Positions 32,194-36,625 of a DNA stretch of 64,000 nucleotides are shown here, one piece after another. The notes under the pieces are model-generated. The model was not told where the DNA came from, did no database searches, and saw nothing but the letters and a program-made list of their open reading frames with translations. The translations under genes and the position numbers were made by a program. The DNA lies in assembly GCF_002151125.1 (NCBI RefSeq), contig NZ_MDJZ01000015.1, forward strand, positions 62,001 through 126,000, in the 5' to 3' direction. Numbering within the stretch: the stretch's first letter is position 1; each line of letters begins with the position of its first letter. This stretch comes from Clavibacter michiganensis. GTDB taxonomy: Bacteria > Actinomycetota > Actinomycetes > Actinomycetales > Microbacteriaceae.

Positions 32194-33183
32194 ATGCTCG
32201 TAGGACGATCCGTCGCCCGGCCCCGCCTCCATCCCGACGCCCGACCCGGTCCGCTCATGCGGACGGGGTCCCGCGGTGGCCGCACGACGCCCCGTCCCGC
32301 GGCGCTCGACGGGGAGGCCCTGCGTGTGCCGTCGATCGTCCGCCCCACCGTCTCCGTCGTCATCCCCGTGCGCGACGACGCCGGCCACCTGCGCGCGTGC
32401 CTCCAGGCCCTGGCCGGGCAGACCGTCGCGCCCGACGAGATCGTCGTCGTCGACAACGCGTCGGGCGACGACAGCGCCGAGGTGGCCCGCCGGGCCGGCG
32501 CGCGCGTCGTCCACGAGCCCGTCGTGGGCATCCCCGCTGCCGCCTCCGCCGGCTACGACGCCGCGCGCCACGAGGTCATCGCGCGCCTCGACGCCGACTG
32601 CGTGCCGCCGGCCGACTGGATCGAGAGGCTCGGCGACGTGCTCGCCGCACGTCCCGACGTCGCCGCGGTCACGGGCGCGGCCCGCTTCCTCGACGGCCCC
32701 CGGGCGCTCCGGGGCGTCGCCGCGGTGGCCTACCTCGGCGCCTACTTCGCCTCGGTGACGCTGGCGCTCGGGCATCCGCCGCTGTTCGGATCCAACTTCG
32801 CGCTCCGCCGCGACGCCTGGCTCCGGGTGCGCGACGAGGTGCACCGCGACGGCACCCACCTGCACGACGACATCGACCTGTCGGTGCACCTCGGACCCGA
32901 GCACCGCATCGTGCTGGATCCGCGACTGCGCATGGGCATCAGCATGCGGCCGCTCACCCGGCCCGCGACCCTGCCGCTGCGCATGAGCCGCGGGATGGCG
33001 TCGCTGACCGTGCACTGGCCGCACGAGCTGCCGTGGCTGCGCTGGCGTCGCACCGGTCGGCGGGTGCTCGACGACCGCCGCGCGCGCCGGACGGGTGCGA
33101 CCGGGACGCCACGGCCCGTGGCGACGGGATCCCCGCTGGTCAGCTCCCCGGAGGCGGCGCGACGCCGAGGTCCTGCGCGCTGA
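32194..33183 (+). CDS. Family 2 glycosyltransferase
   Basis: 329 residues. After a basic lead of about 47 residues comes the GT-A fold: VSVVIPVRDDAGHLRACLQA, DEIVVVDNASGDDS, and the metal-binding DxD-like ARLDADCVPPADW. One hydrophobic stretch (VAAVAYLGAYFASVTLAL, about 175-192) may be membrane-associated. The acceptor is unknown. The C-terminal 40 residues are basic and low-complexity. Its 3' end overlaps the convergent DUF3515 gene by 44 nt. ATG set by the leaderless -10 box, although a later start in the lead peptide cannot be excluded. Confidence 0.85.
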   Translation: MLVGRSVARPRLHPDARPGPLMRTGSRGGRTTPRPAALDGEALRVPSIVRPTVSVVIPVRDDAGHLRACLQALAGQTVAPDEIVVVDNASGDDSAEVARRAGARVVHEPVVGIPAAASAGYDAARHEVIARLDADCVPPADWIERLGDVLAARPDVAAVTGAARFLDGPRALRGVAAVAYLGAYFASVTLALGHPPLFGSNFALRRDAWLRVRDEVHRDGTHLHDDIDLSVHLGPEHRIVLDPRLRMGISMRPLTRPATLPLRMSRGMASLTVHWPHELPWLRWRRTGRRVLDDRRARRTGATGTPRPVATGSPLVSSPEAARRRGPAR

Positions 33184-33649
33184 CGCACTTCGCGGTCTGC
33201 GGGATGACCGAGACGACGCCGCTGAGGTCGGTGAGCGCGGTGTAGCTGGCCTGCGTCGAGTCGATGATGACCTCGACCGCGGGCGTGCGGCCGTACGTCG
33301 TGTAGCGGATGTCGGGGGAGCGCGAGTCGTCCTCGACCCAGTCGACGTCGTCGTAGCTGATGCACGCGTCCGTCGTGGGCCCGGGTGTCGCGACGCCGCA
33401 GCGGAGGATGACCGTGCTCTGCGGGTCGCCCCACGCGCCCGTGCCCTGCGCGTCGGTCTCGCGGATCGGCGCGGTGCCGAGCGTCGCGGGGAGGTGCACG
33501 ACCACGTCGGCGCACAGCGGGTCCGTCGCGCCCGGCGCGGCCTCCAGCGAGACGGCGGGGGAGCAGCCGGCGAGCACGAGGGCGAGGCCGCACGCGGCGG
33601 CGGCTGCGGCGGCGGTGCGCAGGGCGCGGGCGGGGCGGCGGGGAGTCAT
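33140..33649 (-). CDS. DUF3515-family lipoprotein
   Basis: 169 residues. Basic N-terminus, hydrophobic signal (TAAAAAAACGLALVLAGC) ending in the lipobox LAGC, so a secreted lipoprotein is predicted. The rest (PLCADVVVHLPATL ... ISYDDVDWVEDDS ... TYGRTPAVEVIIDS) matches the actinobacterial DUF3515 family, which commonly lies beside thiL; its role is unknown. ATG 33649 lies 7 nt after the -10 box TAGCCT, which shares its TA with the thiL -10 on the other strand. Confidence 0.85.
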   Translation of the reverse strand: MTPRRPARALRTAAAAAAACGLALVLAGCSPAVSLEAAPGATDPLCADVVVHLPATLGTAPIRETDAQGTGAWGDPQSTVILRCGVATPGPTTDACISYDDVDWVEDDSRSPDIRYTTYGRTPAVEVIIDSTQASYTALTDLSGVVSVIPQTAKCVSAQDLGVAPPPGS

Positions 33650-33656
33650 CGAGAGC

Positions 33657-33666
33657 AGGCTACCGT
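33657..33666. promoter_or_regulatory. Overlapping divergent -10 boxes of DUF3515 and thiL
   Basis: The 10-mer AGGCTACCGT contains TACCGT (33661-33666, plus strand, 7 nt before the thiL GTG) and, read on the other strand, TAGCCT (33662-33657, 7 nt before the DUF3515 ATG). Both genes would be leaderless and share one TA base-pair step. Confidence 0.6.
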
Positions 33667-33673
33667 GGCAGTC

Positions 33674-34804
33674 GTGACGACTCCTGGGACCCCCTCCGCC
33701 GCGGATCGGCCCGACGGGGGCGCGGATCCCGACCGACCCGGCGCCCGCGACGCGGCCACCCTCGGGAGCGCGGGGGAGCTCGCGACCCTGGCGCGGATCC
33801 TCCCGCACCTGCCCGCCGGCGACGCCGCCGAGGTCGGCCCGGGCGACGACTGCGCGGTCGTGCGGGCACCCGACGGCCGGTTCGTCATCACGACCGACAT
33901 GATGATCGAGGGCCCCGACTTCCGCCGCGCCTGGTCGTCCTTCCACGACCTCGGGCGCCGCGCCGCGACCTCGAACCTGGCCGACGCGGCGGCCATGGGC
34001 GCACGGCCGACCGCGCTCCTCGTCGCCATCGCCGCTCCCGCGGACACGCGCGTCGCCGACCTCGAGTCCCTCGCGGACGGCCTGCGGGAGGGCTGCCTCC
34101 TCCAGGCGCCGGGCTGCGGCGTCGTGGGCGGCGACCTCTCCGTCTCGGACGCCGTGGTGATATCCGTCACGGCCACGGGCGACCTCGAGGGACGCGACCC
34201 CGTGCTGCGCTCGGGAGCCCGGCCCGGCGACGTGATCGCCGTGGCCGGCGCGCTCGGCATGGCCGCGGCGGGCGTCCGCCTCCTGTTCGACCACGCCAGG
34301 AGCGCCGACGCGGACGGCGCGCTCGTGCCCGACCCGGCGCTCGCCCGGACGCTGCGGGCCGCCCACCCGGACGCGGTGGAGGCGCAGCTGGCGCCCGCCG
34401 CGCCGCTGACCGCGGGCGTCGACGCGGCCCGCGCCGGGGCGACCGCGATGCTCGACGTCTCCGACGGCCTCCTCCTCGACCTCGGCCGGATGGCCCGGGC
34501 GAGCGGAGTGGGCATCGACCTCGGATCCGCCGCCCTCGCCGACGACGCGCGCCGGGTGGCCGCCGCGCATCCGGCGCTGCCTCCCGTCGCGCTCGACCTC
34601 GTGCTCACCGGGGGCGAGGACCACGCGCTCGTCGCGGCGTTCCCGGCGGGCGCGACGCTGCCGGCGCCCTTCCGGGCGATCGGCACGGTCGTCAGCGCCG
34701 GCGCGGACGGGCCCGCCGTGACCGTCGACGGCGCGCCGTACTCCGGCCCGCGGACCCCGCTCGGCGGCTGGGACCCGTACGCGGACTGGGACGGGGCGCG
34801 CTAG
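33674..34804 (+). CDS. thiL: Thiamine-monophosphate kinase
   Basis: 376 residues; phosphorylates thiamine phosphate to the coenzyme thiamine diphosphate, which Kgd and others need. Seen: EVGPGDDCAVVRAPDGRFVI and TTDMMIEGPDFRRAW (metal and ATP site), GARPTALLVAIAAP, GVVGGDLSVSDAVVI, and LDVSDGLLLDLGRMARAS. The first 35 residues are a low-complexity lead (Asp/Pro/Gly). GTG set by the leaderless -10 box. The TAG overlaps the TAG of the convergent rsmD. Confidence 0.94.
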   Translation: MTTPGTPSAADRPDGGADPDRPGARDAATLGSAGELATLARILPHLPAGDAAEVGPGDDCAVVRAPDGRFVITTDMMIEGPDFRRAWSSFHDLGRRAATSNLADAAAMGARPTALLVAIAAPADTRVADLESLADGLREGCLLQAPGCGVVGGDLSVSDAVVISVTATGDLEGRDPVLRSGARPGDVIAVAGALGMAAAGVRLLFDHARSADADGALVPDPALARTLRAAHPDAVEAQLAPAAPLTAGVDAARAGATAMLDVSDGLLLDLGRMARASGVGIDLGSAALADDARRVAAAHPALPPVALDLVLTGGEDHALVAAFPAGATLPAPFRAIGTVVSAGADGPAVTVDGAPYSGPRTPLGGWDPYADWDGAR

Positions 34805-35397
34805 GACGCGTCGTCGTCCGCGGCGTCGGGCGACTCCGCGACCGCCCACCACACGACCGTGTCGCCGTACGCCTTCCGCCGGTCGAGCGCGATGCCCGCC
34901 GGCCACGCCGGCTCGGCGGAGCGGGCGCTGCGCTCGACCATGACCACGGCGCCGTCGACCAGCCGCGGCACGAGCGCCGTCAGCTCCTCCGCCAGCTCGG
35001 CGTCGCCGACCTCGTACGGCGGATCCAGGAAGGCGACGTCGTAGGAGCCGCGGTCGCCGGCGAGGAACGCGTGCACGCTCTGGGCGGCCACGCGGATCGC
35101 GGGCACGGACCCCGCGGGCGCGGCCCGCTCGATCAGCGCGGCGTTATACCGGCAGACCACGGCGGCGGGCACGGCGCGCTCGACGAGGACGACCTCGCGC
35201 GCGCCGCGGCTGGCGGCCTCGAGGCCCAGGGCGCCGGATCCGGCGTACAGGTCGAGGACGCGGGCGCCGTCGAGCGCGTCCCGGGCCTCGAGCCCGGAGA
35301 ACAGGGCCTCGCGCACGCGGTCGCTCGTGGGCCGCGTACCCGTGCGCGGCACGCGGAGGACGAGGGAGCCGGCGTACCCGGCGACGATGCGGGTCAC
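34801..35397 (-). CDS. rsmD: 16S rRNA (guanine-966 N2) methyltransferase
   Basis: 198 residues; methylates G966 of 16S rRNA using S-adenosylmethionine. Seen: RIVAGYAGSLVLRVPRTGTRPTSD at the N-terminus (family signature R-I-x-x-G), the SAM motif LDLYAGSGALGLEAASRG and the catalytic DPPY in FLDPPYEVGD. GTG 35397 forms GTGA with the stop of a short upstream ORF, so translation may be coupled. The usual partner coaD is 7 kb away, beyond recG. Confidence 0.93.
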   Translation of the reverse strand: MTRIVAGYAGSLVLRVPRTGTRPTSDRVREALFSGLEARDALDGARVLDLYAGSGALGLEAASRGAREVVLVERAVPAAVVCRYNAALIERAAPAGSVPAIRVAAQSVHAFLAGDRGSYDVAFLDPPYEVGDAELAEELTALVPRLVDGAVVMVERSARSAEPAWPAGIALDRRKAYGDTVVWWAVAESPDAADDDAS

Positions 35398-35447
35398 GGG
35401 CGGACCCCGGCGGGTCGCGGGACGGCGGCGATCGGAGCGGGGTGCAC
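35394..35447 (-). CDS. Putative leaderless upstream ORF coupled to rsmD
   Basis: 17 codons from a GTG 8 nt after the -10 box TAGCGT, ending in a TGA that overlaps the rsmD GTG (GTGA). Peptide VHPAPIAAVPRPAGVRP, five prolines. No ribosome site is visible before rsmD, so coupling from this ORF is a reasonable way to start it. Inference from spacing and overlap only. Confidence 0.4.
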   Translation of the reverse strand: MHPAPIAAVPRPAGVRP

Positions 35448-35455
35448 GGGCGACC

Positions 35456-35461
35456 ACGCTA
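35456..35461 (-). promoter_or_regulatory. rsmD -10 box, TAGCGT
   Basis: TAGCGT on the minus strand, about 59 nt before rsmD and 8 nt before the short upstream ORF. Confidence 0.5.
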
Positions 35462-35511
35462 CCCGGCCGGCCGCCCCCGGAGGTGGGCCGGACGCTCTCG
35501 GATCCCTGACG

Positions 35512-35517
35512 TATGCT
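35512..35517 (+). promoter_or_regulatory. -10 box TATGCT for the MoxR operon
   Basis: TATGCT with a leader of about 25 nt carrying GGAGGA 5 nt before the GTG: a conventional, non-leaderless start. Confidence 0.5.
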
Positions 35518-35548
35518 GCCAAGACGCCCACGACGCTGGAGGACCTCC

Positions 35549-36625
35549 GTGACGAGTCCCGAGTCCGAGTCCGTTCCCCTGCACTCCGCATCGGGCGCGC
35601 ACCCCGCCCGCATCCGCGCCGCCGCGCGCCAGGCGGACCACGCGAGCGCCATGCCGCTGCCGGAGGTGCGCCGGCTCGCCGACCTGATCCTCGGCAACAT
35701 CGACTCCGTCATGTCCGGCAAGCAGGACGCGACGCGCATGGCGCTCACCGTGTTCCTCTCCGGCGGCCACCTCCTCATCGAGGACGTGCCGGGCGTCGGC
35801 AAGACCATGCTCGCCAAGGCGCTCGCCCGCAGCGTCGACTGCACGGTGAACCGGATCCAGTTCACGCCCGACCTCCTGCCCTCGGACGTCACGGGCGTCT
35901 CCGTCTACAGCCAGGCCGACCACCGCTTCGAGTTCCAGCCGGGCGCGGTGTTCGCGAACATCGTCATCGGCGACGAGATCAACCGCGCGAGCCCCAAGAC
36001 CCAGTCGGCGCTCCTGGAGTGCATGGAGGAGGGGCAGGTGACGGTCGACGGCGTCACGCATCCGCTGCAGCAGCCCTTCACCGTCGTCGCCACGCAGAAC
36101 CCGGTCGAGATGGAGGGCACCTACGCGCTCCCCGAGGCGCAGCGCGACCGCTTCATGGCGCGGATCTCGATGGGCTACCCCGACGCGTCCGCGGAGCTCG
36201 CCATGCTGCGCTCCCGCGACACCGTCAGCCCGCTCGACGAGCTGCGGCCCGTGGTGGACGCCGAGGACCTCGACGCGATGATGCACGCGGCCCGCGGCGT
36301 CTACGTGTCCGACCCCGTGTCCCGCTACACGGTCGCCATCGTGCAGGCGACGCGCGGCCACGAGGACATCCGCCTCGGCGCGAGCCCCCGCGCCACGCTC
36401 CAGCTCATCCGCGCCGCGAAGACCCGCGCGGCGCTCGACGGCCGCGACTTCGTGCTGCCCGACGACGTCGACGCCCTCGCCGCGCCCGTGCTCGCGCACC
36501 GGCTCGTCGCGACCGGGCGCGCGCTCGGGCAGCGCGGTCGAGGCCAGGCCGCGGTGGTCGAGATCCTCGAGCGCATCGTCGCGTCGACGGCCGTGCCGCT
36601 CAGCGCCGCGGGTCGGACGCGCTGA
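35549..36625 (+). CDS. MoxR-family AAA+ ATPase
   Basis: 358 residues; cytosolic AAA+ chaperone-type ATPase. Seen: Walker A EDVPGVGKTMLAKAL, Walker B IVIGDEINRASPKTQSALLE, VTVDGVTHPL, the sensor TQNPVEMEGTYALPEAQRDRFM. First gene of MoxR - DUF58 - transglutaminase, a conserved actinobacterial trio where MoxR is thought to act on the partners or their substrates; the pathway is unknown. GTG 35549 was preferred to the upstream ATG 35513 because GGAGGA lies 5 nt before it and the ATG overlaps the promoter. Confidence 0.92.
   Translation: MTSPESESVPLHSASGAHPARIRAAARQADHASAMPLPEVRRLADLILGNIDSVMSGKQDATRMALTVFLSGGHLLIEDVPGVGKTMLAKALARSVDCTVNRIQFTPDLLPSDVTGVSVYSQADHRFEFQPGAVFANIVIGDEINRASPKTQSALLECMEEGQVTVDGVTHPLQQPFTVVATQNPVEMEGTYALPEAQRDRFMARISMGYPDASAELAMLRSRDTVSPLDELRPVVDAEDLDAMMHAARGVYVSDPVSRYTVAIVQATRGHEDIRLGASPRATLQLIRAAKTRAALDGRDFVLPDDVDALAAPVLAHRLVATGRALGQRGRGQAAVVEILERIVASTAVPLSAAGRTR

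Follow-up and report, generated by a model that had tools for sequence, protein, structure and literature searches.

The window, a stretch of 64,000 nucleotides from Clavibacter michiganensis (contig NZ_MDJZ01000015.1, positions 62,001 to 126,000), contains a divergent gene pair consisting of thiL and a gene for a DUF3515 protein, separated by a short gap (Table 1). The thiL product scored 214.8 bits against TIGR01379 (cut-off 184.15) and the DUF3515 product 71.2 bits against PF12028 (cut-off 27.6). Among named ThiL loci, the nearest are those of Clavibacter, whose best segments are 86% and 89% identical. The translation of the DUF3515 gene contains LAGC, which we take to be lipobox-like. DUF3515 and thiL each overlap a convergent outer ORF, and each therefore seems to be its own transcription unit. 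The ORF that converges on thiL matched TIGR00095 (rsmD) with 116.9 bits, slightly below the cut-off of 117.5, and a D-Ala-D-Ala ligase gene sits before the glycosyltransferase ORF. When the DUF3515 protein was searched for relatives on viral contigs none were confirmed, and as a single-protein query against solved structures it matched no chain up to E = 1. The term DUF3515 was not found in the open-licence literature searched, and no Rfam element was matched at gathering scores in 33000-34400.

Table 1. Features of the DUF3515/thiL locus and of a second two-way promoter; positions are those of the window unless a locus is named
Feature	Position	Strand	Remarks
Glycosyltransferase ORF	32194-33183		Convergent to DUF3515; PF00535; 44-base overlap with DUF3515
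DUF3515 gene, predicted lipoprotein	33140..33649	-	ATG start, predicted leaderless; PF12028 above cut-off
Intergenic gap, read as bidirectional promoter core	33650..33673	both	24 bp between start codons
-10 element TAGCCT of DUF3515	33657..33662	-	7 nt upstream of ATG 33649
TA common to both -10 elements	33661..33662	both	Reciprocal -12/-11
-10 element TACCGT of thiL	33661..33666	+	7 nt upstream of GTG 33674
thiL, thiamine-phosphate kinase	33674..34804	+	GTG start, predicted leaderless; TIGR01379 and NF004351 above cut-off; PF00586
ORF	34801-35892		Convergent to thiL; PF03602; 4-base overlap with thiL
Two-way promoter TAGGGTA, 18-bp type, glgX / cysteine desulfurase	L321:10411-10434		Both sides leaderless-type; on the window's contig, outside the window

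Within the gap, the sequence reads AGGCTACCGT at 33657-33666. The geometry described in the earlier note was borne out: TACCGT on the forward strand and TAGCCT on the reverse strand have a TA in common, and each lies 7 nt from the start codon of its gene in a gap of 24 bp. The -10 elements of the two strands overlap with reciprocal bases, as in a bidirectional promoter. Both also lie within 6-8 nt of a start codon, as in leaderless genes (the spacers are 33667-33673 for thiL and 33650-33656 for DUF3515), and the gap itself has no Shine-Dalgarno-like site. An additional in-frame GTG for thiL is present at 33665, within the -10 element; we favour GTG 33674 as the start because its spacing is kept in relatives. 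From this geometry we infer that transcription in both directions would start at or near the two start codons.

We compared the gap with a 664-kb sample of the 3.02-Mb Clavibacter genome, made up of the window and 30 stretches of 20 kb. Before the candidate starts of the 604 genes called there by a simple coding score, TAnnnT was found 78 times at a distance of 6 nt and 35 times at 7 nt; every other spacing from 0 to 29 nt had 0-9 matches each. Divergent pairs less than 600 bp apart numbered 92, nine of which had a leaderless signal on both genes, and in two of these nine the -10 elements were shared. The pattern CA[TC]-N5-8-ANNNTANNNT-N5-8-[AG]TG had a single occurrence in the sample, the thiL/DUF3515 gap.

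A profile search detected PF12028 in 113 of 120 genomes of the Microbacteriaceae, and the family set comprised 117 PF12028 loci (L009-L125), the window's own among them. The test for shared geometry requires BLAST hits to both genes. These were found at 102 of the 117 loci, and the genes were divergent at all 102; the remaining 15 had no thiL hit within the stretch, some of them being ended by the contig end. With spacers of 3-12 nt permitted, ANNNTANNNT lay between the start codons in 80 of the 102 pairs. Both spacers measured 6-8 nt in 78 of these 80, the combinations being 7/7 (33 pairs), 7/6 (22), 8/7 (8), 8/6 (6), 6/6 (4) and 6/7 (4), with 9/6, 8/8 and 9/7 seen once each. TAnnnT stood 6-8 nt upstream of thiL in 79/80 shared pairs and of DUF3515 in 76/80. 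Because only rows with the motif count as shared, four letters are constant by definition. Two letters that the search did not demand, G at -2 and C at +3 relative to the shared T, were each present in 80/80, and columns -8, +10 and +11 were near background composition. The counts come from related genomes and hence not from independent samples. The conservation of the geometry exceeds chance, given that 80 of the 102 pairs keep it and that several columns of the spacers have near-background composition.

A named set gave a similar picture: among the best 80 ThiL loci listed, which overlap with the first set, 66 were shared, 13 were split and one had no DUF3515 gene in its stretch (66/79 with shared geometry, two of the 13 split rows, L290 and L312, in fact carrying the motif). 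The shared form occurred in records titled Clavibacter, Leifsonia, Cryobacterium, Agreia, Frigoribacterium and Mycetocola, and also in records titled Curtobacterium, Herbiconiux, Rathayibacter, Plantibacter and Microbacterium.

Shine-Dalgarno-like 4-mers were scarce in the shared pairs, being present at 3/80 thiL starts and 3/80 DUF3515 starts; the corresponding figure for the roughly placed starts of the genome was 210/552. We rejected a -35 element: on neither side of the 80 shared pairs did the columns where it would be expected favour TTGACA-like letters, C at +23 (53/80) being the strongest column in that region.

The letters G-2 and C+3 were also favoured in thiL and DUF3515 promoters that are not shared (72/88 and 56/88, respectively). 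When the two promoters are merged, each one's G is base-paired with the other's C, and this may explain why both letters are invariant in the merged form. A general palindromic leaderless consensus, CGNTANCGT, was considered and rejected, since the genome's 113 leaderless-type hits had G-2 in 44 cases and C+3 in 44. Such hits have no G/C preference genome-wide, and the preference is therefore at most a property of the thiL and DUF3515 promoters that we do not generalise.

The 22 family pairs without a shared promoter, one thiL being counted twice among them (L093 and L119), had TAnnnT 6-8 nt upstream of thiL in 19 cases and of DUF3515 in 18. At longer gaps, both genes thus mostly keep a -10 element of their own at leaderless distance, which speaks for transcription in both directions. 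To trace the shared and unshared states we used a quick FastTree of ThiL with 162 rows, four of 166 having been dropped as short (L051, L069, L079 and L148), in which 53 of 158 inner branches were below 80% support. On this tree the states need 15 changes by parsimony. Depending on small weighting changes, these were resolved into 2 gains with 13 losses or 5 gains with 10 losses, and 1 gain and 20 losses were obtained when gains were weighted very costly; some rows that enter as losses (L060, L124 and L029) are not clean splits, having an insertion or a start further downstream instead. Sharing has been lost repeatedly, and it is therefore persistent but dispensable rather than essential.

Several of the deviating loci were inspected by eye. 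L060 keeps the shared motif and the DUF3515 side, and a different reading frame begins at its thiL side. In L029 and L301 (Mycetocola lacteus), AGGTTACCGT is kept 7 nt from the DUF3515 start, and the thiL start seems to lie further downstream with a TAnnnT of its own. A record titled Microbacterium sp. ASV49 has, at L304:1442-1461, -10 elements that are seemingly about 8 bases apart, which looks like a transition between the merged and the split arrangement. The DUF3515 spacer also differed between forms. It was 7 nt in 55/80 and 6 nt in 8/80 shared pairs; separate promoters had 6 nt in 9/22 and 7 nt in 7/22 family pairs, and 6 nt in 19/64 and 7 nt in 4/64 pairs outside the family. This shift may be caused by relatedness.

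Beyond the family, PF12028 was found in 88/119 genomes of an order sample and 122/148 of a class sample, each of which contains some Microbacteriaceae genomes. A set of 99 further loci was assembled (L136-L234, of which L141 is from a family genome). A divergent thiL lay beside DUF3515 in 88 of them; 64 of these were recognised from BLAST hits to both genes and 24 from where the PF12028 match lay. The other 11 had no thiL hit within the stretch. As the earlier note had supposed, the gene pair is conserved, with divergent orientation at 102/117 family loci and 88/99 others. Shared geometry was present in one of the 64 BLAST-tested outside pairs (L159, spacers 10/7). The other 24, scanned for the motif without a frame check, gave one candidate (L165, spacers 9/9) that we did not count. 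TAnnnT was located 6-8 nt upstream of thiL in 28 and of DUF3515 in 24 of the 64 pairs, with peaks at 6-7 nt. The divergent pair is thus as common outside the family as within, whereas sharing is found almost only inside it, and the gene pair therefore predates the shared promoter and is more widespread.

We also looked at genomes without a PF12028 match; the family sample and the order sample together had 38 of them. The 27 that were searched for thiL had it above cut-off in 18 cases; 12 thiL loci were obtained from these 27 genomes and 10 were inspected, without a frame check. By eye, the shared motif was still upstream of thiL in the PF12028-negative family genomes G012, G036 and G094 and absent in G065. 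As the motif precedes thiL in these three of the 27 genomes, DUF3515 may have been missed there. In two order-level loci without a PF12028 match (L373 and L374), thiL appears by eye to follow directly after the end of a ddl-like gene. The link from DUF3515 to thiamine metabolism that the earlier note had drawn found no support beyond gene order, and the neighbourhood also includes the D-Ala-D-Ala ligase gene.

The other sharing pair of the 664-kb sample has a second two-way promoter on the same contig, flanked by glgX and the gene of a cysteine desulfurase (Table 1). The glgX product matched TIGR02100 above cut-off. The desulfurase matched PF00266 above cut-off, and its top NCBIfam match, NifS, was below its own cut-off. 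At a threshold of E <= 1e-90, 56/60 family genomes had the desulfurase, and at the 30 loci that were kept GlgX was divergent in 29. TANNNTA was present 5-8 nt from the GlgX-side start codon in 25 of these 29 pairs; the desulfurase side was leaderless too in five of the 25, and had a longer leader in the other 20.

We consider it highly probable that the thiL/DUF3515 gap is one bidirectional promoter of a known TA-sharing class with starts about 23 bp apart, that both of its transcripts are leaderless, and that it arose by merger in the Microbacteriaceae and was split again repeatedly. RNA polymerase would bind either way round on two -10 hexamers with a common TA, the T-12/A-11 of each strand pairing with the A-11/T-12 of the other, at a promoter of the housekeeping type without a recognisable -35 element. 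Transcription would start at or beside the first nucleotide of either start codon, near 33674 on the forward and 33649 on the reverse strand. The common T-12/A-11 sets the predicted starts 23 bp apart at standard spacing, or 25 bp apart if both are at the codon. The output would be two leaderless mRNAs, for ThiL and for the DUF3515 lipoprotein, and initiation in one direction would presumably exclude initiation in the other. As to its origin, an older divergent DUF3515-thiL pair would have had a separate leaderless promoter for each gene, and loss of the intervening DNA would have merged the two, most likely in the ancestry of the Microbacteriaceae. One two-way promoter with a shared TA and two leaderless genes, as proposed in the earlier note, is thus supported by comparative sequence evidence: the geometry and its conservation, the few Shine-Dalgarno-like sites, the lack of a -35 preference and the retention of both -10 elements at longer gaps.

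What purpose the arrangement serves is a separate matter. One possibility, compatible with the bidirectional promoter and to which we give an even chance, is that the gap reflects plain genome compaction and that sharing serves no purpose in itself. Two hexamers and two 7-nt spacers amount to 26 bp, so that a gap of 24 bp forces an overlap of 2 bp, and on this view nothing but a common TA lets both leaderless -10 elements fit. Lineages have lost sharing repeatedly and hence can do without it, and both genes overlap their outer convergent neighbors as well. On the other hand, compaction has to be weighed against the fact that sharing is kept in 80 of the 102 sampled pairs. It could be speculated that sharing itself is selected, exclusive initiation on one TA setting the ratio of thiL to DUF3515 or damping noise, and that fused leaderless promoters, of both the TA-sharing and the 18-bp type, are a general means of coupling divergent genes in the Microbacteriaceae; this seems to us rather unlikely.

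Another possibility is that only one strand carries a true promoter, the other hexamer being coincidental and the second gene expressed from elsewhere. The exact sequence CAGGCTACCGT has two occurrences in the 3.02-Mb genome, and at the second of these (L235) a leaderless-type start was seen by eye on the (-) side only, as would be the case for a one-way promoter. However, the near-constant spacing on both sides of the shared pairs, the TAnnnT retained before both genes in most of the longer-gap pairs and the scarcity of Shine-Dalgarno-like sites on both sides make this improbable for the thiL/DUF3515 gap. That the conserved core of 10-12 bp is a transcription-factor site controlling both genes, instead of or in addition to two -10 elements, would account for the invariant letters beyond TAnnnT but is very improbable, as just two exact matches to CAGGCTACCGT are not regulon-like, the constant 6-8 nt to both start codons suits a -10 element, and unshared thiL and DUF3515 promoters independently favour the same G and C.

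The bidirectional promoter that we favour would be a minimal and apparently fully leaderless one, with dozens of natural variants in merged and split form. Comparison of merged and split relatives would allow the effect of -10 sharing on two real genes to be assessed, and the gap is thus a good natural test case for one promoter run both ways in bacteria. If sharing is selected, these relatives would constitute a natural experiment in promoter fusion.

Warman and colleagues reportedly described bidirectional promoters with symmetric -10 elements in 2021. In the available part of a later study (Warman et al. 2026, PMC12825309), the commonest distance between bidirectional starts is 18 bp, and 10 and 23 bp are frequent too. 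The same part states that opposing polymerases are unable to bind such promoters simultaneously, and that the five promoters tested there had too little basal activity for competition to arise; by analogy, mutual exclusion need not matter at the thiL/DUF3515 gap. Bidirectional promoters are defined by divergent transcription start sites 7-25 bp apart in the available part of PMC10268837, and the 23-25 bp that we predict from the sequence would fall within this range. As far as these excerpts go, the thiL/DUF3515 promoter is like those of PMC12825309 and PMC10268837 in having predicted divergent starts within 25 bp, overlapping -10 elements and reciprocal bases. It differs in that both mRNAs are predicted to be leaderless, a word absent from the main text of PMC12825309.

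A search of the titles and abstract openings of open-licence literature returned no description of two leaderless genes on one shared -10 element. For Mycobacterium tuberculosis, a figure legend indicates that closely juxtaposed divergent promoters are common and that Rv1130/Rv1129c is a divergent pair with both mRNAs leaderless (Cortes et al. 2013, PMC3898074); the main text of that article does not contain the word 'bidirectional' and, in its available part, two leaderless genes on one -10 element are not mentioned. Judging from the same part, the thiL/DUF3515 promoter resembles the M. tuberculosis leaderless promoters in having TANNNT without a conserved -35 element. The thiL/DUF3515 case extends the idea of the symmetric promoter to high-GC actinobacteria without leaders. 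The promoters of PMC12825309 and PMC10268837, in their available parts, are from E. coli and Salmonella, whereas the thiL/DUF3515 form is kept across many genera of the Microbacteriaceae, which suggests that such a promoter can last across a bacterial family.
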